Source: a virus. Taken from it: 36,841 nucleotides of DNA. The stretch lies in the IMG/VR virus record IMGVR_UViG_3300037502_004173, positions 1-36,841 of that record, one strand, 5' to 3'. The notes beneath the pieces are model-generated. The model had not been told where the DNA came from, did not search any database, and saw only the letters and a list, made by a program, of their open reading frames with translations. Made by a program: the position numbers and the translations under genes. Shown in pieces: positions 1,396-13,863 of this stretch (its first letter is position 1; every line of letters starts with the position of its first letter).

Positions 1396-1421
1396 GACAA
1401 AAGGAGGGGAACTCCCCTCCT
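1396..1421 (-). terminator. Terminator of the leftward early operon
   Basis: A perfect 8-bp stem (AGGAGGGG, loop AACT, CCCCTCCT) lies at 1402-1421. Read on the minus strand it is followed by TTTTGTC. It overlaps the stop codon of the last minus-strand gene, and could also stop rightward transcription from the gene ending at 1374. Confidence 0.75.
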
Positions 1422-1638
1422 AAACCACCATTTCAGCGGGTAACATCCCGCGTTCGACAGCCCACTCAACCACTTTATGGTAAGGGCGCATTCCACGCTT
1501 TTCCTTAACAGGTTTTGGAAAGCCTAGCTTATCTGTCCAGCGCCAAAGCGTCGGTTGGCTGATCTCAAACTTCTCTTTGATCTCTCTGTCCGAGATAAGT
1601 ACGCGAGGCAGGTTGGTATTGTTTGTTGGATTACTCAT
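1420..1638 (-). CDS. Small helix-turn-helix regulator, AlpA/excisionase-like
   Basis: The 72-residue protein has an N-terminal winged-helix/MerR-type DNA-binding pattern. Residues about 14-40 (ISDREIKEKFEISQPTLWRW) look like the recognition helix region of AlpA-type phage regulators, and a basic segment with KRGMRPYHK follows. It is the last gene of the leftward early operon. In temperate phages such proteins act as excisionase or transcription regulators; here either is possible and the integrase is far away. The start is set by the leader AGGAACTGTGCAATGAG, a motif shared with several other early genes. Confidence 0.7.
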   Translation of the reverse strand: MSNPTNNTNLPRVLISDREIKEKFEISQPTLWRWTDKLGFPKPVKEKRGMRPYHKVVEWAVERGMLPAEMVV

Positions 1639-1650
1639 TGCACAGTTCCT
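1634..1650 (-). repeat. Early leader motif, copy a (at gene start)
   Basis: Reads AGGAACTGTGCAATGAG on the minus strand. Its ATG is the start of the helix-turn-helix gene, and AGGA is a usable ribosome binding site. Confidence 0.6.
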
Positions 1651-1677
1651 TTCTTAGCTATGGGATTTGGCCGCTGG

Positions 1678-1914
1678 TCAGTTCGGCATATCCGCAATTG
1701 GGTTGCGGTGTTGGTTTCGGTTAAACAAGCGTCGAATCAGATAACTACGAACGATCGACACAATGGTAAAGAAGACGCCAATTAACAGGTTGTCGGTAAG
1801 GGGGAGGTGAACGCCAAAGAACGGGAAGATAGCCAACTGGCCGCATAGCACTAAAACATAACCGATCACCACATTCACCACACTTTCAATAAAACTTTGC
1901 TGCTTACTCTGCAT
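1678..1914 (-). CDS. Small two-TM phage membrane protein (DUF7220-like)
   Basis: I start it at the internal ATG giving MQSKQQSFIES, because AAGGGAAA lies just upstream and an upstream start would run deep into the neighbouring gene. The 78-residue product has two hydrophobic stretches: VVNVVIGYVLVLCGQLAIFP, then LLIGVFFTIVSIVRSYLIRR. The pattern 'SFIES-VNV-IGY...NLLIGV-FT-VSI-RSY-IRR-FN' is one I associate with a small family found in prophage early regions (DUF7220). Its role is unknown. It is a member of the leftward early operon. Confidence 0.7.
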   Translation of the reverse strand: MQSKQQSFIESVVNVVIGYVLVLCGQLAIFPFFGVHLPLTDNLLIGVFFTIVSIVRSYLIRRLFNRNQHRNPIADMPN

Positions 1915-1924
1915 TGCGTTTCCC

Positions 1925-2296
1925 TTAGCCCACTGGCTGATAAATCCGAACCCGGTTGTTTGTGTGCCAACAATCGGCGTCTCCTTTAAATAAACCGCCA
2001 TCGCTTAGCTTGGCACATCCTTCTGGGAGCTGTTCTCCGCACTTACGGCATTTCCCCAGTTGCGTTTCAATCACTGGAATTTCGCTATAGACACGGTGGA
2101 TCAGTGACTGAAGTGCTTCTTCCTGTGTATAGGGTTCAGCGGGATAGGCGAAGAACTGACAGATTTTCTCTAACTTCGCCTGTTCCTGAGGGTTTAGAGA
2201 TACGCGCATATCATGGTTGTTGTTGGCTTTACGCTTATCTCTACATCTTTGAGCGCGCTTTGCGTTTTGCTTACGTTTACGCTCTTCAGGTGTCAT
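1925..2296 (-). CDS. Basic early protein with a Cys cluster, function unknown
   Basis: The 123-residue product starts with a very basic stretch (KRKQNAKRAQRCRDKRKA), followed by a helical middle and a C-terminal pair CRKCGEQLPEGC with a further Cys-His (CWH), which could bind zinc. The architecture resembles small phage proteins that bind nucleic acid, but I cannot name it. Its ATG overlaps the stop of the preceding gene by four bases (ATGA), so the two are probably translationally coupled. Confidence 0.7.
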   Translation of the reverse strand: MTPEERKRKQNAKRAQRCRDKRKANNNHDMRVSLNPQEQAKLEKICQFFAYPAEPYTQEEALQSLIHRVYSEIPVIETQLGKCRKCGEQLPEGCAKLSDGGLFKGDADCWHTNNRVRIYQPVG

Positions 2297-2535
2297 TTTG
2301 TTTTGCTCTTTCTAGTTCGCCTTGGCTTCTTAGGTGAGAGCATCTGTTTAGCTCTGGCTAGGCATTCATCGAACACCTTGCCCTTGGCAAAACCAGCAGT
2401 GTTACGATAGTGGTCGATTCCGCGCTCAATGGCGCGTTTGATGTCGAGTTCTTCATGGCCGTCGTTCTCGAGAGCTGTGGTCATATGTTTGGCGATAAAT
2501 GCCTCTTGGCTGTTTCGGTAAGTTAAAGTACTCAT
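2293..2535 (-). CDS. Small helical early protein, function unknown
   Basis: This is an 80-residue, mostly helical protein with a lysine/arginine-rich C-terminus (KKPRRTRKSKTK), which suggests contact with nucleic acid. I recognise no family. It is coupled to the next gene by a 4-base overlap. The start lies in a variant of the early leader motif (AGGAACTTAGTGTAATGAG), with AGGA as the likely ribosome binding site. Confidence 0.65.
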   Translation of the reverse strand: MSTLTYRNSQEAFIAKHMTTALENDGHEELDIKRAIERGIDHYRNTAGFAKGKVFDECLARAKQMLSPKKPRRTRKSKTK

Positions 2536-2549
2536 TACACTAAGTTCCT
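2531..2549 (-). repeat. Early leader motif, copy b (at gene start)
   Basis: Reads AGGAACTTAGTGTAATGAG on the minus strand. It is a diverged copy in which TGTGCAATGAG has become AGTGTAATGAG. Its ATG starts the 80-residue gene. Confidence 0.5.
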
Positions 2550-2642
2550 ATTGCTTGTGGGTGAATACCCGCAATCAGCCTAAGATCTTGATATTGGTGG
2601 TCAGCCAGAGATATACTGATTGCGAGGTTTGGTTATCTAAGT

Positions 2643-2659
2643 CTCATTGCACAAAGAAC
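2643..2659 (-). repeat. Early leader motif, copy c (no gene attached)
   Basis: Reads GTTCTTTGTGCAATGAG on the minus strand. The ATG opens only a four-codon ORF (ATG AGA CTT AGA TAA). It is therefore either a leader peptide, a relic start of a lost gene, or a sign that the motif is not primarily a translation signal. Confidence 0.55.
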
Positions 2660-2660
2660 G

Positions 2661-2688
2661 CCCCTGTTGGTTTGGTCACCGATAGGGG
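2661..2688. terminator. Strong hairpin between early genes
   Basis: An 11-bp stem including two G-U pairs (CCCCTGTTGGT, loop TTGGTC, ACCGATAGGGG). On the plus strand it is followed by TTTTCTCTTTCT; on the minus strand only by the weaker CGTTCTTTG. It lies just after the stop of the minus-strand gene ending at 2699, so it may be an attenuator of the leftward operon, which then depends on antitermination. Confidence 0.55.
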
Positions 2689-2698
2689 TTTTCTCTTT

Positions 2699-2971
2699 CT
2701 AGTGGGGTAGCGTTCTCGCTTCCACTGCGGCTTGCAGGCTAACCAGCTGGCTGAATAGCTCTTGCGCCTTTTCAAAATCTTCTTCGTTTACGTGAATCTC
2801 CAGCCCTTTAAAGTCTTCAGCGCCTTCAAAGATGGAAGTCGCCGCGATACGAAGCGGGTCATCCTTACTTAGCTCTGCTGTCACTTCTTCAAACTGATGG
2901 CTGCACACATTGAGTAGTTGCAGGTTGTTCAGCAGTTGGTGGGTTTGTTCTAACGTCATTGTTTTCATCAT
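2699..2971 (-). CDS. Small acidic early protein, function unknown
   Basis: I start it at the tandem ATG ATG giving MMKTMTLEQTHQ. The longer frame begins inside the leader hairpin region and adds residues unlike the rest. The roughly 90-residue product is helical and acidic (NEEDFEKAQELFSQLVSLQAAVEA) with no recognisable domain. The start is reached through a three-codon mini-ORF (ATG AGA GCT TAA) whose stop overlaps the gene's ATG as TAATG. That mini-ORF itself begins at an early leader motif, suggesting coupled translation. Confidence 0.65.
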   Translation of the reverse strand: MMKTMTLEQTHQLLNNLQLLNVCSHQFEEVTAELSKDDPLRIAATSIFEGAEDFKGLEIHVNEEDFEKAQELFSQLVSLQAAVEARTLPH

Positions 2972-2977
2972 TAAGCT

Positions 2978-2994
2978 CTCATTGCACAAAGTTC
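2978..2994 (-). repeat. Early leader motif, copy d (opens a mini-ORF)
   Basis: Reads GAACTTTGTGCAATGAG on the minus strand. Its ATG opens the mini-ORF M-R-A-stop, which ends exactly on the start codon of the 90-residue gene. Confidence 0.6.
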
Positions 2995-3004
2995 TAGATA
3001 AGTC

Positions 3005-3021
3005 GCGGCTGGTCAGGCCGC
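3005..3021. repeat. Hairpin with the TGACCA-type motif
   Basis: GCGGCTGGTCAGGCCGC forms a 5-bp stem (GCGGC/GCCGC) around TGGTCAG. Related copies are TGGTGGTCAGCCA at 2595-2607, GGCTGGTCAGGCT at 3460-3472 and, in the opposite orientation, GTGGCTGACCACCAC at 5236-5250. All lie ahead of early genes. Confidence 0.45.
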
Positions 3022-3032
3022 GATTGCACAAA
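3022..3032 (-). repeat. Early leader motif, partial copy e
   Basis: Reads TTTGTGCAATC on the minus strand, adjoining the hairpin at 3005-3021. The ATG is lost (ATC). Confidence 0.4.
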
Positions 3033-3130
3033 TGTGATTAAAATCTTGGTTTATATATACTTACTAAGCAATGGGTTGCACTGTGCGTAAGTTGTTGATA
3101 TAAATCGTTATGAGTGTCCCTTGGGTGATG

Positions 3131-3145
3131 CTCGTTGCACAAAGT
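3131..3145 (-). repeat. Early leader motif, copy f (start codon lost)
   Basis: Reads ACTTTGTGCAACGAG on the minus strand: identical to the core motif except that ATG is ACG, with no ORF attached. This suggests selection on, or spread of, the motif apart from translation. Confidence 0.5.
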
Positions 3146-3149
3146 AAAT

Positions 3150-3186
3150 CCTAGATCTCGTGTCTAGGTGCGCTACTGAGGTAGCG
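3150..3186. other. Two adjacent small hairpins in an early intergenic region
   Basis: CCTAGA/TCTAGG (3150-3168, 7-base loop) and CGCTAC/GTAGCG (3171-3186, loop TGAG) lie directly downstream of the minus-strand gene that ends at 3190. Neither has a clear U-tract. They could be attenuation, processing or antitermination structures. Apart from these and leader copies e and f, I see no gene in 3032-3189. Confidence 0.45.
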
Positions 3187-3189
3187 AAC

Positions 3190-3417
3190 TTAAGTCGCTA
3201 GAGGTTTGGTCACTTCTAGCGGCTTTAACATATCTGGGGTATCAGAAAAGCCTCCAATCGAAATCAACTCAATATCCTGCTTAGTAACAAAGAACCTTAA
3301 CTTCTCGTTGTTTTCGGTTAGTAGGCAGATGCCGATATGTGAATCCCTTTCGGGTAAAACGCCATAGATTTCTGCCTTAACAAAACCCTTTGGGGTTCTT
3401 GGTGATTTAACATCCAT
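3190..3417 (-). CDS. First gene of the leftward early operon, function unknown
   Basis: A 75-residue protein with a compact beta-rich pattern (GFVKAEIYGVLPERDSHIGI, then KLRFFVTKQDIELISIGGF); it may be a small OB-like or single-stranded-DNA-binding-type fold, but this is a guess and I recognise no family. It has a good ribosome binding site (GGAGATAGGTA before the ATG). It is the promoter-proximal gene downstream of the operator-covered leftward promoter, so it should be expressed immediately on induction. Confidence 0.65.
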   Translation of the reverse strand: MDVKSPRTPKGFVKAEIYGVLPERDSHIGICLLTENNEKLRFFVTKQDIELISIGGFSDTPDMLKPLEVTKPLAT

Positions 3418-3485
3418 TACCTATCTCCAAATTAACGCTAGTCGCTCCCTAAGGAGGGCGGCTGGTCAGGCTTACTAACTTATGA

Positions 3486-3498
3486 ACACTAATTGTGT
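3486..3498. promoter_or_regulatory. Repressor operator, left site 1
   Basis: ACACTAATTGTGT matches the palindrome ACAC-N5-GTGT. It lies in the transcribed leader of the leftward operon. Confidence 0.7.
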
Positions 3499-3522
3499 TT
3501 GCTAGGTTGTCTCGATAGAAAT

Positions 3523-3552
3523 AAAATACACAAAACGTGTTTGATGTGTCAA
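3523..3552 (-). promoter_or_regulatory. Leftward early promoter (PL-like)
   Basis: On the minus strand: TTGACA (3547-3552), an 18-bp spacer and TATTTT (3523-3528). The -35 is a perfect consensus match. Left operator 2 lies in the spacer and left operator 3 overlaps the -35, so repressor binding should block polymerase. Confidence 0.7.
3528..3540. promoter_or_regulatory. Repressor operator, left site 2
   Basis: ACACAAAACGTGT, lying between the -35 and -10 of the leftward promoter. Confidence 0.8.
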
Positions 3553-3564
3553 CACGTTTTGTGT
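3552..3564. promoter_or_regulatory. Repressor operator, left site 3
   Basis: ACACGTTTTGTGT, 24 bp centre-to-centre from left site 2. It is identical to the right-hand site at 4358-4370. Confidence 0.8.
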
Positions 3565-3582
3565 TCGTTTTTGCGTCAGATA

Positions 3583-3613
3583 TAAAAAAACCGCCTAAAG
3601 TTAGGCGGTTTTA
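3583..3613. terminator. Bidirectional terminator after the repressor gene
   Basis: A 10-bp stem AACCGCCTAA/TTAGGCGGTT with a 2-base loop (AG) and an A-run on its left, which is a U-run on the minus strand. It ends repressor transcription before the leftward promoter region. Confidence 0.85.
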
Positions 3614-3635
3614 TGAAAAAAGCTGCTTGTCTTTT

Positions 3636-4304
3636 CTATATGAGTCTTAGTCTTGCTTCTACGACGACACCGATGATCTTGCAGTTACCGTTGATAGGAA
3701 TCATTTTATAGTTTTCGTTTAGTGGCTTTAAATAGTCCTGACCACCATCAGTTACAAACTTCTTAAACGTTGCTTCATTAACGTCTGTTAACTTCGCTAC
3801 AACTAAAGAACCATTACAATGTTCTTTCTCTGTATCGACCAGAACAAGAGTTCCTTCAGGGACACTGACGCCAGATAAGCTAGTCATCGAATCACCTTGA
3901 ACTTTTAACCAAAAGCTACGCTTCGATGTTTTAACTGTTGCTTCATACCATTCGTCTATTTCATCTAGGGCGTATGCCTCACAAGCTTCAGTCCATTGAC
4001 CTGCTTGTACAGAACTCAAAAGAGGGAATGAGCTTTGAAGCCTAGGCTGAATATCTATTTCATGTACATTTGGAATTAAGTCGATTTCTGAGGAATCGAA
4101 TAGGATTTCATAAGGTTTGATATTTAATACGGAGGCAATAATTTCAGCATCATCTAAATTGATACTTCTCACCCCAGCTTCATAATTACCAATACGAGAT
4201 GCGCCCCAGCCGCATTTCTCAGCTAGGGTCTTTTGGCTTATGCCTTGGGCTTCTCGGAATCGCTTTAAACGCGACCCCACTTCTTGTTTTTTACTCATAT
4301 CCAT
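3636..4304 (-). CDS. Phage repressor, CI/LexA type (HTH plus S24 peptidase)
   Basis: The 222-residue protein has an N-terminal XRE helix-turn-helix (about 11-65; SQKTLAEKCGWGASRIGNYE) and a C-terminal S24 self-cleavage domain: likely cleavage site A101-G102 (VQAGQW), Ser139 (GDSM) and Lys171 (VAKLTD). It therefore should bind the ACAC-N5-GTGT operators, silence both early promoters, and be inactivated by RecA-stimulated cleavage during the SOS response. It is transcribed opposite to the Cro-like gene. The start could be M1 or M3; neither has a clear ribosome binding site, so a leaderless or near-leaderless message is possible. Confidence 0.92.
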   Translation of the reverse strand: MDMSKKQEVGSRLKRFREAQGISQKTLAEKCGWGASRIGNYEAGVRSINLDDAEIIASVLNIKPYEILFDSSEIDLIPNVHEIDIQPRLQSSFPLLSSVQAGQWTEACEAYALDEIDEWYEATVKTSKRSFWLKVQGDSMTSLSGVSVPEGTLVLVDTEKEHCNGSLVVAKLTDVNEATFKKFVTDGGQDYLKPLNENYKMIPINGNCKIIGVVVEARLRLI

Positions 4305-4310
4305 AAATTA

Positions 4311-4323
4311 ACACGCTCTGTGT
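4311..4323. promoter_or_regulatory. Repressor operator, right site 1
   Basis: ACACGCTCTGTGT, ending only a few bases upstream of the repressor start codon. It is well placed for autorepression. Confidence 0.7.
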
Positions 4324-4334
4324 GTGCTGTAAGC

Positions 4335-4347
4335 ACACGAATTGTGT
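4335..4347. promoter_or_regulatory. Repressor operator, right site 2
   Basis: ACACGAATTGTGT, 24 bp from right site 1 and 23 bp from right site 3. That spacing puts the three dimers on nearly the same helix face. Confidence 0.8.
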
Positions 4348-4375
4348 TTACTGTTAAACACGTTTTGTGTATTCT
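4347..4375 (+). promoter_or_regulatory. Rightward early promoter (PR-like)
   Basis: A candidate -35 TTTACT (4347-4352), 17-bp spacer and -10 TATTCT (4370-4375), each matching consensus at four of six bases. Right operator 3 fills the spacer, and the Cro-like gene starts about 20 bp downstream. Confidence 0.6.
4358..4370. promoter_or_regulatory. Repressor operator, right site 3
   Basis: ACACGTTTTGTGT, identical to left site 3. It lies inside the candidate rightward promoter. Confidence 0.8.
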
Positions 4376-4394
4376 CTTTGGCGGAGGGCTAGCA

Positions 4395-4628
4395 ATGAAC
4401 AATATTTCATTATTTCGCAATCAAGCCAAAATCAGCCAATCGAAGTTAAGTCAGATGGTGGGAGTAACGCCTTCGACCATAGGTAACTACGAATCAGGGA
4501 TTCGAGCCATAAATATCAGTATGGGATGGAAAATCGTGAATGCATTTTCTTCTTTAGGCATTAAGTGTCAATTCACTGAAGTATTTCCAAATCCCTTAGA
4601 TTCAAAAAATAGCAAAACCCATTCTTAA
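4395..4628 (+). CDS. Cro-like helix-turn-helix regulator
   Basis: I start it at the ATG giving MNNISLFRNQAKIS, preceded by GGCGGAGGG; the longer frame would run through the operators. The 77-residue protein has one XRE-type helix-turn-helix (SQSKLSQMVGVTPSTIGNYESG, about residues 12-33) that resembles the repressor's own DNA-binding domain, including the IGNYE(A/S)G motif. It therefore probably recognises the same operators and acts as Cro. It is the first gene of the rightward early operon and diverges from the repressor. Confidence 0.85.
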   Translation: MNNISLFRNQAKISQSKLSQMVGVTPSTIGNYESGIRAINISMGWKIVNAFSSLGIKCQFTEVFPNPLDSKNSKTHS

Positions 4629-4674
4629 AAGGCTGATCAACAACATTCTGTACAAACAACCAGTAAGGAAAGTC

Positions 4675-5223
4675 ATGAACAACAGTTTTAAAAGCGTTAT
4701 GCGTAACGCGATAGAAAGTTGGCGAACGGAACTGAGCAAAGAGTGCATTGCTCACCGTGTCGCTAGCTTGTATCACAAACTCGATCTGGAACATGAAGTC
4801 GATGCTCAGCGTAAAGCGCTGCTCAAAGTGCCGGGTGCGGATGACAAGAACAACGCGCAGAACTTTTTCCGCTATGTCGAGCGCACGAGTGTAGAAGCCA
4901 AAGCCACAATGATGGATTTGTTACCCGCGGTACTTAAGGCCATGCCCGCCAAACGCGGGAGCGACATGCTTAACCAATTTCTCAACCCGCTTGGGTTCTC
5001 TGTCACTTGCATTGGTGCCAGTGATGCAAACCTTAGCCGCGATTTATTGCTGCACAACCACAACAAAGAAACTTCTGAAGCGTTTTGTGCGGTGATCTCT
5101 TTAGGTGAGAACGCGACCATCGACCAGCTGCGCGATGCGTACCGAGAAGTGCAGGAGGCGAAGGCATCTCACGCGCCGCTTCTTGAATACCTTGAATCGT
5201 TGATGGCCAAGAAAGCCGCCTGA
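4675..5223 (+). CDS. YdaT/CII-like early regulator
   Basis: The 182-residue protein contains a segment (about 57-95: DDKNNAQNFFRYVERTSVEA, then LLPAVLKAMPAKR) that resembles the pattern in YdaT of the Rac prophage, NNQQN-(x)-W/Y-(x)-LIPAILAILP. YdaT-family proteins are reported as CII-like transcription activators of lambdoid prophages encoded just after Cro/YdaS, which is exactly this position. An acidic C-terminal helical part follows. The ribosome binding site AAGGAAAG is good. Its binding target here is not known; the assignment rests on remembered similarity and synteny. Confidence 0.6.
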   Translation: MNNSFKSVMRNAIESWRTELSKECIAHRVASLYHKLDLEHEVDAQRKALLKVPGADDKNNAQNFFRYVERTSVEAKATMMDLLPAVLKAMPAKRGSDMLNQFLNPLGFSVTCIGASDANLSRDLLLHNHNKETSEAFCAVISLGENATIDQLRDAYREVQEAKASHAPLLEYLESLMAKKAA

Positions 5224-5235
5224 TTTAAACGCGTC

Positions 5236-5250
5236 GTGGCTGACCACCAC
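5236..5250 (+). repeat. TGACCA-type motif ahead of the 43-residue gene
   Basis: GTGGCTGACCACCAC is the plus-strand counterpart of the motif found at 2595, 3007 and 3460 on the other arm. Confidence 0.4.
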
Positions 5251-5271
5251 AGAACACGCATCTAACTAGGA

Positions 5272-5288
5272 GAACTTTGTGCAATGAG
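5272..5288 (+). repeat. Early leader motif, copy g (at gene start, plus strand)
   Basis: GAACTTTGTGCAATGAG is identical over 17 bases to minus-strand copy d. It is preceded by AGGA, and its ATG starts the 43-residue gene. The motif thus occurs on both divergent early arms. Confidence 0.65.
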
Positions 5289-5415
5289 TCTTAGCTTACA
5301 GAACTATCACGGCTGCCTGATTTGGGTGGCCAATAACGGTGTGTGTCGTTTCGTCGTATCACGGACTAAAGCGATGGAAATCTTTGAATCAATGAAAGCG
5401 GGGACGGCGGTGTGA
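5284..5415 (+). CDS. Small early ORF upstream of the replication gene
   Basis: A 43-residue ORF begins at a leader-motif ATG with AGGAGAAC as ribosome binding site. Its sequence (MSLSLQNYHGCLIWVANNGV at the start) has no family I recognise. The stop overlaps the GTG start of the replication gene (GTGTGA), so it probably couples translation into that gene. The motif, good spacing and overlap together make it likely to be real. Confidence 0.6.
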   Translation: MSLSLQNYHGCLIWVANNGVCRFVVSRTKAMEIFESMKAGTAV

Positions 5416-6197
5416 TTGAGTATTTGGATAGACCCATCGCTTTTCATCGATCGTTTGTGAAGATGGGGATTGGTATCACGGGCGCATTAATGCTTAGCCA
5501 GAGTATTTACTGGAGCCGAAGAACGAACGCTTCTGGATGGTTTTACAAAACTCAGGAAGAGTGGCAAGACGAAACGGGCATGACTCGAAGAGAGCTTGAT
5601 ACTGCGCGTAAAAAGCTGCGTCAGTTAGGTATTTTGGAAGAGAAAAAACAAGGTGTTCCTTGCCGAGTTTTCTACCGCATTAATGAGCCAAACTTGATTG
5701 CACAAATGGAGCAAACTGGTTTGGCGGAATGCGCCAAACTAGAACGTACAAATGCGCCAAGCAGTGCTGTACAAATCAGCCAAACTAAAACAGAGACTAC
5801 ACAGAGATTACCAGAGACTACTACAGAAAAAGTAAACAAAAAGTCTCCCATCACGGGTAGCTTGGTTTCTGAGGAGCACATTCCAGCCATGCTCGATCAC
5901 GATGCTTGGGCTGAGTACCTGGCATTCCGTAAGCGAATCAAAAAGCCTTTCAAAACTGAGCGGGGCGAGCGAACCAAAATGCTCGATTTGCTCAAGCTCT
6001 CCCAGAACGTGGTGAGCATGCAGCGCCAAATCATTACGCAATCCATCGACAACGAGTGGCAAGGGTTGTTTAACCTCAAATCGCCCTCGCCAAACTCAAA
6101 GTTAATTCCGGTGGAGCAGTTTTCTGACCAAACCAACCCTGATGATTACGGACCACCTCAGTGGTTCAAAGACCGCCAAGACGGAGGTGACCAATGA
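5412..6197 (+). CDS. Phage replication initiator, O-like (winged helix)
   Basis: The 261-residue protein starts at GTG, overlapping the previous stop by four bases. The N-terminal third (about 1-95) is a winged-helix module (ALMLSQSIYWSRRTNASGWF, then TGMTRRELDTARKKLRQLGI), as in phage replisome organisers. A low-complexity Thr/Gln linker follows (about 118-145), then a C-terminal segment with the pattern RQIITQSIDNEWQGLFNLK that is usual at the end of DnaT/O-type proteins and is thought to contact the helicase or its loader. It should bind the phage origin and recruit the helicase with the next gene's product. The linker region is AT-rich and could contain the origin, but I see no clear iterons. 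Confidence 0.75.
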   Translation: MIEYLDRPIAFHRSFVKMGIGITGALMLSQSIYWSRRTNASGWFYKTQEEWQDETGMTRRELDTARKKLRQLGILEEKKQGVPCRVFYRINEPNLIAQMEQTGLAECAKLERTNAPSSAVQISQTKTETTQRLPETTTEKVNKKSPITGSLVSEEHIPAMLDHDAWAEYLAFRKRIKKPFKTERGERTKMLDLLKLSQNVVSMQRQIITQSIDNEWQGLFNLKSPSPNSKLIPVEQFSDQTNPDDYGPPQWFKDRQDGGDQ

Positions 6198-8864: not shown

Positions 8865-8907
8865 CAAAGTACTCATGACTGGTTGGCAACATGTACTTGG
8901 GTTTGAT

Positions 8908-9039
8908 GTTGTTCGAGCCTCTTCGCATAACTTTGTAGGGGATCTACATAGTTGAGGTTTAGACGGCTATGTTTTGGTCAGAACAACAATGACATCCTTC
9001 CTTTGCTGCTGGAACTATAAAACGCCCCCAGGGGCGTTT
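8908..9039. repeat. Cargo-locus direct repeat A, copy 1
   Basis: This stretch aligns with 12087-12217 almost base for base, e.g. GTTGTTCGA, TCGCATAACTTTG, CTACATAGTTGAG, CGGCTATGTTTTGGTCAGAA and CCTTCCTTTGCTGCTG in the same order. It ends in a terminator and adjoins the 3' end of the TOPRIM gene. Confidence 0.9.
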
Positions 9040-12065: not shown

Positions 12066-12086
12066 AAAGGGGGGCTTAAGTGTGTA

Positions 12087-12217
12087 GTTGTTCGAACTGC
12101 ATCGCATAACTTTGGTAGAAGCCTACATAGTTGAGCTTTCAACGGCTATGTTTTGGTCAGAACAATAATGACTCCCTTCCTTTGCTGCTGAAACTAAAAA
12201 CGCCCCTCGGGGCGTTT
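12087..12217. repeat. Cargo-locus direct repeat A, copy 2
   Basis: Second copy of the 8908-9039 sequence, 21 bases after the Q remnant. Here the order Q-end, repeat A is uninterrupted, which shows the ancestral layout; in copy 1 two membrane-protein genes separate Q from repeat A. Confidence 0.9.
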
Positions 12218-12226: not shown

Positions 12227-13246
12227 TTAGCTTGCTGGGCTTACAATGCTGCCACTGTCGGTAGCATAGTACTTTTTAGTAGTCATGCCTTGCTTGTAGT
12301 AATCGTTAAGGAGCTTAAGGAAGTTTCGACCTTGCTTCTCATCTTCAATTACTATTTTACCATCTTCATTAATTGTGAACTCTTCACCTTGAAACATTTT
12401 TAGTACATCGTTCATTGATAGAACTTCATTTTTGTCTAAGGTGGTGTGATTACCTTTCTCAGCGATATGGGCAAGCGTTTTTCTGAGAGATGGTTTGTGT
12501 AATATCGCTTGTTCTAAAATATCTAAACCTTCAACCAGGTCAAACTCTTTAATGGTATTTAGTGTTTTTTGGGCTGCCTCGGTGAACTCTGCCTCAAGCC
12601 CAACAATTGCTTCAAAGCTTTTCTTATGGAAAACATAGAACTTTTCATTGATATATATACAGTCGATTTTATCATCGAAATTTACGACGCTTCCATCAAA
12701 CGTTTTTAACTCACCACCTGTTTTGTCGAACATGGCTGAAATACGTTGCAATACGTCTTGTGGCTCATTAGTTGTCACTTTTCCCTTACTGATTTTTCTA
12801 AAGGAATAAGTTAATTCAGTTCCTTGCTGTACTTTAATGCAATAAGCCCAAAGGTCATCTTGTATATCTGTAAGTGCTTTGAGTTCTGGGATTTTATCAG
12901 ACTTAATATTTTCATTGATAACCTTTGCAAATGAAATGGCATTGTTCATTGCGTAAGCATAGATTTTATTATCTATATCGTCATCAATAACAGTGTAGTT
13001 TTTCATTTCAATATCATCTTTTGATGCGTGAGAAATGATCTGGTTGGAAAGAGTTTGCTTAAAAAATGTAGCTATATCTGGTGCTATTGGTGCTTTTACA
13101 AGTTTGAAGTCATGTTTATCAGTCACTTTTGCACTTCTGCTCATGCCTGTCTTTAAGTGCCTTGTTACAAAATACAGTGAGACCTTAGCTTTTTTATCAC
13201 TTTGTAGCTCTTCAGCGTATTCCAGCAACTCTTCCAGTTTTAACAT
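12227..13246 (-). CDS. kwaB: Kiwa defence protein KwaB (DUF4868)
   Basis: This 339-residue soluble protein follows a four-TM protein by a TAATG overlap. Length, gene order and sequence style (N-terminal KVSLYFVTRHLK; middle segment KIDCIYINEKFYVFHKKSFEAI; C-terminal DUF4868-like helical region) match KwaB. In the Kiwa system KwaA is a membrane-embedded sensor and KwaB is the cytoplasmic, DNA-binding effector that blocks late infection steps. The assignment comes from recalled family features, not a search. It is oriented against the late operon and ends at the repeat A terminator. Confidence 0.82.
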   Translation of the reverse strand: MLKLEELLEYAEELQSDKKAKVSLYFVTRHLKTGMSRSAKVTDKHDFKLVKAPIAPDIATFFKQTLSNQIISHASKDDIEMKNYTVIDDDIDNKIYAYAMNNAISFAKVINENIKSDKIPELKALTDIQDDLWAYCIKVQQGTELTYSFRKISKGKVTTNEPQDVLQRISAMFDKTGGELKTFDGSVVNFDDKIDCIYINEKFYVFHKKSFEAIVGLEAEFTEAAQKTLNTIKEFDLVEGLDILEQAILHKPSLRKTLAHIAEKGNHTTLDKNEVLSMNDVLKMFQGEEFTINEDGKIVIEDEKQGRNFLKLLNDYYKQGMTTKKYYATDSGSIVSPAS

Positions 13247-13863
13247 TATTTATCCTCGTGTGATTCAGCGTAAAATAGTTTAGGCCCTACATCTTCTATA
13301 TCTAAATAGTCATCTTCTTCTAAATATTTTGATTTAGTTAAAATCATTCCAGTCCGTTTCTTTTTGCTCTCTATATCTAAATATGTAACTTGATATAGTG
13401 TATATTTGATACTAATAGTGGGATTAATAAGTATCATGCTGGAATTTGTATAGATTAATGCTGTTACCAATAATAAAACAGCAATTGGAATAATATTTGT
13501 TAAGGTCGATAGGTCTTGAAATACGAAAGGAATTATATAGGTAAATAAATAACTAATAGATTCACTGTTTTTGTTTTCTATGTCTACTATTTTTACTGTA
13601 CGTCCGCTAGTTCGGCATCTTCGTTTGACATTTTTAAGAAATATTATTAGTCCGAAGATTCCAAATAAAGAAATGAGTATTAAAATTGTAACGGCACCAA
13701 AATATTTGGCGAATATACTTAATGACTCGTAGCTTATTCCATTCCAGTTTAAATAGTTTCTATATGTGTATATTTGAACAAAGCACATAATAAAAAATAG
13801 AGGAAGATATGACACAAGGAAGAGTGATATACGAGCTCCTAAATGTAACTTGTTTACTCTCAT
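13246..13863 (-). CDS. kwaA: Kiwa defence protein KwaA, four-TM membrane protein
   Basis: The 205-residue protein has hydrophobic segments at about 12-34, 53-77, 103-118 and 122-145, and a polar C-terminal tail. Length, topology and position directly upstream of kwaB agree with KwaA, the membrane component that senses phage attachment or injection. There is a usable ribosome binding site (AGAGG) before the ATG. It is AT-rich like kwaB. I saw no convincing -35/-10 pair in the 160 bases upstream. Confidence 0.8.
   Translation of the reverse strand: MRVNKLHLGARISLFLVSYLPLFFIMCFVQIYTYRNYLNWNGISYESLSIFAKYFGAVTILILISLFGIFGLIIFLKNVKRRCRTSGRTVKIVDIENKNSESISYLFTYIIPFVFQDLSTLTNIIPIAVLLLVTALIYTNSSMILINPTISIKYTLYQVTYLDIESKKKRTGMILTKSKYLEEDDYLDIEDVGPKLFYAESHEDK

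Follow-up and report, generated by a model that had tools for sequence, protein, structure and literature searches.

Why would one short sequence recur at the starts of unrelated early genes of a phage, and also at positions where no gene follows? The question is raised by the window analyzed here, the whole 36,841 nucleotides (nt) of the IMG/VR virus record IMGVR_UViG_3300037502_004173 (positions 1 to 36,841), in which the motif TTTGTGCAATGAG is found on both early arms. The motif is real, non-random, and conserved. Very probably it represents the target half of an antisense-RNA system that represses early prophage genes. The most likely function of such a system would be to repress the translation of replication, excision, and left-arm genes while the phage is in the lysogenic state.

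The motif and a predicted small RNA gene

Exact copies of TTTGTGCAATGAG occupy positions 2643-2655(-), 2978-2990(-), and 5276-5288(+). One mismatch (ACG) separates the copy at 3131-3143(-) from the motif, and the copies at 1634-1646(-) and 2531-2543(-) carry two mismatches each. With up to two mismatches allowed, the window holds 7 matches against a mean of 1.83 in shuffled sequences, and none of 100 shuffles reached 7. A limit of one mismatch leaves 4 matches, compared with 0 for the reversed motif. An earlier note on this DNA had listed seven sites, all of which are present. The plus-strand copy had been placed at 5272, whereas the 16-mer spans 5273-5288, and the match at 5694, one of the 7 counted above, was absent from the list. 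At the listed 3022 site, just the first ten bases of the motif are left (TTTGTGCAAT). The observation that three copies supply the ATG of open reading frames (ORFs) holds for 1638-, 2535-, and 5284+. The remaining copies open a mini-ORF or lack the ATG, as had also been described. At 2978 the copy begins a 3-codon ORF, and the ATG of a gene of 90 amino acids (aa) overlaps the stop of this ORF; 3131 reads ACG, and 3022 reads ATC.

The copy at 2643-2655(-) sits opposite a promoter-seed-terminator unit that the earlier note overlooked. Read on the plus strand, this copy is CTCATTGCACAAAG and falls between a predicted promoter and a predicted terminator. The hairpin at 2660-2689 is the top-listed terminator of the region in an independent scan that also reports the promoter. 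In the predicted fold of the 86-nt unit at 2618-2703(+), a largely unpaired seed separates a 5' hairpin from a terminator hairpin of 12 bp; the fold z score against shuffles is -4.67 on the plus strand and -1.89 on the minus strand. Because promoter and terminator flank the seed and the fold is strong, 2618-2703(+) is a candidate small RNA (sRNA) gene, antisense to the Shine-Dalgarno (SD) and start region of its targets. A non-coding unit enclosed by a predicted promoter and Rho-independent terminator has the makeup of an sRNA gene, and the gene-less 2643 copy appears to be the complement of that gene itself. The gene is placed inside the leftward early operon, on the opposite strand, about 2.6 kb from the right-arm target in the other arm. 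Of the other gene-less copies, 3131 probably belongs to a decayed second sRNA copy, and 3022 is probably a cis element flanking a CUGACCA hairpin.

Conservation was followed in related prophages of Vibrio and Aliivibrio, collected by an IMG/VR pattern scan and by a motif-independent scan with the CII-like protein. The covariance model R1 (at least 85 bits) detected the sRNA in 57 of 58 CII-bait loci, left of cII and on the strand that also carries cII; since R1 itself derives from phages of this group, it is the bait and not the model that makes the result independent. The one locus without the sRNA (L149) belongs to a truncated contig, which stops 1.2 kb to the left of cII. When the terminator loop was the sole query, 45 contigs were recovered; the seed precedes the loop in every one except L114, which has a partial seed at the contig edge. 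Across 27 aligned sRNAs CTCATTGCACAAAG is unchanged. The same sRNA occurs in the isolated Vibrio phage 10N.286.54.F2_PE001 (locus L005:3685-3776). Among 25 distinct primary copies, all 25 carry an invariant TATACT with TTG(A/T)NN 17-18 nt upstream. In 36 distinct sRNAs, 537 of 540 cells of the predicted stem pairs are paired on the plus strand against 443 of 540 on the minus strand, a deficit explained by the many G-U pairs. Two-sided compensatory change affects 6 of 15 terminator pairs in the alignment that includes diverged copies. Stem pairing on the plus strand and the conserved promoter therefore argue for a functional RNA read from that strand.

High-confidence copies were present in 21 of the 331 Vibrionaceae genomes searched with R1. 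With R2 under strict filters, 369 class-level and 395 order-level genomes gave only two matches, both already known from the family search, and a plasmid collection gave no match. Rfam held nothing relevant for the window region or ten related loci, and the sRNA family is absent from Rfam 15. No RNA annotation stands at the sRNA position in the named relatives inspected, and no description of this sRNA was found in the open-access literature, with subscription papers outside the search. Taken together with the target sites described below, the predicted RNA is best read as belonging to a new family of antisense sRNAs whose regulon comprises several targets. Pseudomonas phages with CII about 25-30% identical were compared for gene order only.

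Weak matches were sorted separately. Vibrionaceae hits to R1 or R2 below about 40 bits (L224-L226, L228-L230, L303, L304, L306, and L307) were rejected as plain terminators with no seed or synteny. The weak match L227/L248 was retained because of CII, CI, and dnaC synteny and three matching targets. A further terminator outside the prophage locus (L311, G056:C1:1890153-1890229) is preceded by CATTGCACGA, the seed type of the same genome's prophage sRNA, which may be chance or a remnant. Second sRNA copies occur within the same prophage at L172:5450-5538, L175:3319-3405, L202:5452-5538, and L236; those in L172 and L175 have no conserved promoter, and the two copies in L236 (G040) lie 489 nt apart. 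In L040, a second copy carries a one-base deletion in the seed.

Target sites, seed co-change, and upstream hairpins

The check proposed in the earlier note, a search for the motif in related phages, showed that dozens of related Vibrionaceae prophages have it on both of their early arms. Exact or near copies stand at the real starts of 177 genes from 14 unrelated protein families in the related-locus set, including 50 genes homologous to phrog_4439. In relatives, cII is followed by the right-arm target, a leader ORF of about 43 aa. Among 49 distinct right-arm leaders, 47 have a stop that overlaps or abuts the start of the next long ORF, typically as RTGA; by the same loose overlap criterion, this holds for 19% of control short ORFs. 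Within the window, the right-arm leader start forms the strongest predicted sRNA duplex among 238 ORF starts, the 2978 site equals it, and the phrog_4439 start ranks fourth. The left-operon transcript would contain a full complement of the sRNA, with a predicted duplex of -51.9 kcal/mol at the sRNA site.

Seeds differ among diverged Vibrionaceae prophages, and in each case the targets fit the seed of the same prophage. A CACATAG seed is accompanied by a CTATGTG target in L234, and CACGATGG by GCATCGTG at four genes in L237 and L249. The corresponding seed and target are TTCATTGCACGAA and TTCGTGCAATGAA in L238, and CACGAGAT and ATCTCGTG in L239. In L248, CATTGCAATGTT goes with AACATTGCAATG at three sites, so that the sRNA and three targets share the same swapped block. 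Pairing extends to 320 of the 322 seed positions in 23 distinct sRNA/right-arm pairs, against a permuted mean of 306. None of 20,000 shuffles reached the observed pairing (p<5e-5; p=5e-5 when collapsed to 10 pairs), a value that overstates the independent events because seed types cluster on the CII tree, with about 5 label changes and the CTAT type nested within the CTTT clade. Where a right-arm target differs from the exact complement, a G-U pair is kept in 3 of 5 collapsed cases. Mean duplex energies are -31.9 kcal/mol for cognate and -23.3 kcal/mol for non-cognate combinations. Predicted seed pairing at translation initiation regions is backed by compensatory change, as would be expected of an sRNA.

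A second element lies upstream of the sites. CTGACCA occurs within 100 nt upstream of 115 of 141 distinct targets against 111 of 2432 control starts, and with a stem of at least 3 bp at 94 of 141 targets against 58 of 2432 controls. The same loop recurs in these hairpins, and their stems differ in a compensatory manner. GACCA has its complement, UGGUC, in the terminator loop of the sRNA, and L223 and L227 retain UGGUC although the other loop bases have changed. Recognition is therefore probably bipartite, given a terminator loop complementary to the upstream CUGACCA loops, and the order of hairpin and seed site fits antiparallel bipartite pairing. The combined CTGACCA..GTGCAATGA module is concentrated in genomes with these prophages, at up to 5 per genome, and is elsewhere scattered singly.

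Several points weigh against this interpretation. The plus-strand sRNA at 2618-2703 is a prediction from sequence. Independent co-change events appear to be few (about 5), though more than one, and the right-arm targets of L168 and L245 contain a true seed mismatch. CTGACCA is missing within 100 nt of 26 of the 141 targets. The loop-loop contact has no covariation support, and since both loops are invariant, bipartite pairing is a step that we infer. The excisionase-like site pairs most weakly of the window targets, and all duplex energies given here were computed without accessibility.

Table 1. Predicted features of the early region of the window, in order of position.
Feature	Coordinates	Strand	Evidence or remark
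72-aa excisionase/DNA-binding-like gene	1420..1638	-	weak phrog_4745 and phrog_66
Target of excisionase-like gene, AAGGAACTGTGCAATGAG	1634..1649	-	duplex -21.0 kcal/mol, z=-1.1
Hairpin GCCGAACTGACCAGCGGC, upstream of excisionase-like start	1670..1687	-	
80-aa gene, phrog_4439	2293..2535	-	E=2e-23
Target of phrog_4439 gene, AGGAACTTAGTGTAATGAG	2531..2546	-	C-to-T keeps G-U pair; duplex -25.2 kcal/mol
sRNA promoter TTGATA-18-TATACT	2588..2617	+	sigma-70-type; independent scan, 10/12 matches
CTGACCA hairpin upstream of phrog_4439 target	2595..2607	-	sRNA promoter spacer on other strand
Candidate antisense sRNA gene, about 80-86 nt	2618..2703	+	fold z=-4.67; R1/R2 108.6/86.0 bits
sRNA seed GTCTCATTGCACAAAG (GUCUCAUUGCACAAAG)	2641..2656	+	mostly single-stranded between two hairpins; complement is copy 2643-2655(-)
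Intrinsic terminator hairpin, 12 bp	2660..2689	+	loop UUGGUC (2672-2677), T-rich tail to about 2700; scan and fold
90-aa left-arm gene downstream of 2978 target	2699..2971	-	no PHROG; no Pfam above cut-off
Left-arm target AACTTTGTGCAATGAG	2978..2993	-	opens 3-codon ORF MRA*, overlap TAATG with next ATG; duplex -30.6 kcal/mol
Hairpin CGCGGC-CTGACCA-GCCGCG, upstream of 2978 target	3004..3022	-	
Gene-less copy (ATC), 5' of hairpin	3024..3034	-	minimum free energy fold of 2960-3040(-)
Candidate decayed second sRNA copy	3131..3237	+	CTCGTTGCACAAAG, then terminator-like hairpin, GGTTTGGTCAC loop; 25.8 and 23.9 bits
CI-like repressor	3636..4304	-	helix-turn-helix and S24 peptidase domains (Pfam)
CII-like regulator (bait)	4675..5223	+	phrog_163, E=9e-27
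Hairpin GTGG-CTGACCA-CCAC, upstream of right-arm target	5236..5250	+	
Right-arm target, AGGAG and AACTTTGTGCAATGAG, start of leader ORF	5273..5288	+	duplex -30.7 kcal/mol
43-aa leader ORF (MSLSLQNYHG...)	5284..5415	+	stop overlaps GTG of next gene (GTGA)
O-like replication initiator, coupled to leader ORF	5412..6197	+	phrog_9773, E=3e-39

Two further observations concern this region. The promoter spacer at 2595-2607 holds TGGTGGTCAGCCA, the complement of the CUGACCA hairpin of the left-operon mRNA. Promoter and mRNA hairpin use the same DNA, and the flanks are compensatory across relatives. In addition, UUGUGCAA in 2960-3040(-) is self-complementary with two G-U pairs, and the neighboring copies at 3022 and 2978 can therefore pair within one mRNA. 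Such cis pairing around the CUGACCA hairpin could hide the start codon.

Alternative explanations and known systems

The earlier note had proposed either an RNA-level signal or a modular joint used in gene shuffling. The first idea was right in kind as far as translational control is concerned and did not hold for antitermination, the agent being most plausibly a phage-encoded antisense sRNA. An unlikely alternative concerns how such an RNA acts: the sRNA would exist but serve mainly to activate genes, to sponge another RNA, or to control host mRNAs, and the phage sites would be decoys. The direction of regulation is unreadable from sequence, and the phage sRNAs VpdS and PreS work on host targets (PMC12197685). 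However, the sites here cover the SD and the start codon, the classical repressive position, and stand at real gene starts of the 14 families, and the concentration of the CTGACCA..GTGCAATGA module in prophage-carrying genomes likewise speaks for phage targets.

Somewhat less probable still is protein binding, by an RNA-binding repressor or a DNA-binding regulator of phage or host origin. Under this explanation the start-overlapping motif would be the binding site itself, and the copy in the sRNA unit one more site. TTTGTGCAA is quasi-palindromic, each genome has one motif type, as concerted binding-site change would give, and CTGACCA hairpins with variable stems and an invariant loop resemble protein sites. 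Yet the 2643 copy belongs to a conserved opposite-strand promoter-seed-terminator unit, whose stem is kept by plus-strand G-U pairs. Differences between right-arm targets and the seed complement are also mostly G-U-compatible, and the register of the motif is fixed relative to SD and ATG.

Boundary sequences of lambdoid phages are short and conserved and lie between exchangeable early genes. A similar conserved joint might help early-gene modules to recombine, as has been suggested for lambdoid phages; a modular joint was the second idea of the earlier note. The part that stands is that 14 unrelated protein families start with the motif; the same 13-17 nt precede unrelated genes, and second sRNA copies show that the unit duplicates. 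The idea fails to explain the co-change of motif and seed in each lineage, gives no role to this co-change or to the compensatory stems of the upstream hairpins, and lambdoid boundary sequences are not known to come with a covarying antisense RNA. We consider a joint very improbable as the main explanation. The chance that CTGACCA hairpins and motif are nut-like antitermination sites is equally slight, since, although RNA hairpins with an invariant loop occur on both early arms as do nutL and nutR, the motif is unlike boxA, lies on start codons, and covaries with the sRNA, and the hairpins precede most target genes rather than occurring once per arm.

Described antisense systems offer partial parallels to the proposed antisense sRNA. 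C4 of P1/P7 (RF01695) is a phage antisense RNA of about 77 nt that covers the ribosome-binding site (RBS) while a second loop pairs upstream; few changed bases separate P1 and P7 specificity, and the RNA is processed by RNase P from a larger transcript (PMC5320573). The likeness lies in a probable use of the RBS together with an upstream element and in specificity that would be set by few bases. C4 controls ant, whereas the sRNA here would have its own promoter and terminator, the opposite strand, and several targets in two operons. Set against C4-type bipartite pairing, the RBS part covaries here and the upstream loop complement is invariant. The conserved promoter directly before the sRNA would argue against C4-like RNase P processing. 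RF01695 gave no match at E<=5 in the window region and none at E<=0.5 in ten related loci.

CopA is a cis-encoded, fully complementary antisense RNA with one target. In the IncFII plasmid R1 it keeps a short leader ORF from being translated, and the replication initiator is coupled to that leader (PMC12361487). The right arm resembles this CopA/tap/RepA arrangement in the predicted antisense cover of the leader start and in a leader stop that overlaps or abuts the initiator start. It differs in that CopA is encoded in the leader, while the phage sRNA is encoded elsewhere and would use a short seed on several targets. In P22 and lambda, early gene expression is limited by the phage antisense RNAs sar and OOP, respectively (PMC12197685). 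Descriptions of both concern a single cis-encoded target and no regulon with a repeated target site. The sRNA VpdS, from Vibrio phage VP882, acts on several mRNAs (PMC12197685); it differs from the RNA proposed here in that it binds Hfq, promotes lytic replication, and has host RNAs among its targets. VP882 was not among the blastn matches, and its genome gave a best R2 score of 14.0 bits (E=0.76), with no convincing sRNA homologue.

Proposed mechanism and neighboring features

At the level of sequence, the sRNA architecture, strand, conservation, co-change, target position over SD and AUG, upstream hairpins, and start-stop coupling are established; transcription, repression, the lysogenic role, and titration by the left-operon transcript are what we infer. 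The prophage would encode an sRNA of about 80 nt on the plus strand, antisense to the leftward early operon. Its CUC-flanked seed (AUUGCACAAAG) is predicted to pair with early mRNAs of the two arms over the SD spacer and the start codon. The initiator-coupled leader ORF, the phrog_4439 gene, and the first gene of the left arm would be targets, with weaker pairing at the excisionase-like gene. UGGUC in the terminator loop may contact the CUGACCA hairpin loops located 32-71 nt upstream of most targets. Pairing would block 30S loading. On the right arm, shut-off of the leader ORF would silence the replication initiator as well through start-stop coupling. In the lysogen, CI would silence the left operon, and free sRNA could mop up leaky early mRNA. 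Upon induction, the left-operon transcript would read through the sRNA gene, thereby titrating and occluding the sRNA.

A more tentative proposal, which we regard as possible, is that this system forms a second, RNA-based immunity beside CI. The sRNA and the left operon would constitute a bistable switch, with the transcript as antidote, and seed types would act as prophage compatibility groups, silencing replication and excision of same-type incoming phages and sparing others. The seed types listed are CTTTGTG, CTATGTG, CATCGTG, ATTCGTG, TCTCGTG, and AACATTG.

Most described phage antisense RNAs that act on phage genes have one cis target each, whereas here one sRNA apparently controls a regulon across both early operons. 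Unrelated incoming genes carry a short site at their start, and this site appears to co-evolve with the sRNA across Vibrionaceae. The natural variants of seed and target could serve as a testbed for shifts in antisense specificity that require several targets to change in step. The system also bears on RNA as a second immunity system of temperate phages and on the entry of gene modules into a regulon.

Beyond the early region, the window carries a complete Kiwa defence pair at 12227-13863(-), with KwaB (E=6e-155) and KwaA (E=3e-100) identified by PADLOC. The segment 9049-11754(-) is probably a second defence cassette. It encodes a 522-aa AAA ATPase similar to NsnB/PDC-M55A/AriA/GajA and an adjoining 377-aa protein with no PADLOC or Pfam match. 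A 138-nt direct repeat (8896-9033 and 12075-12212, 79% identical, spacing 3179) flanks this 9-12 kb cassette and may be the joint used in exchange of the defence module.

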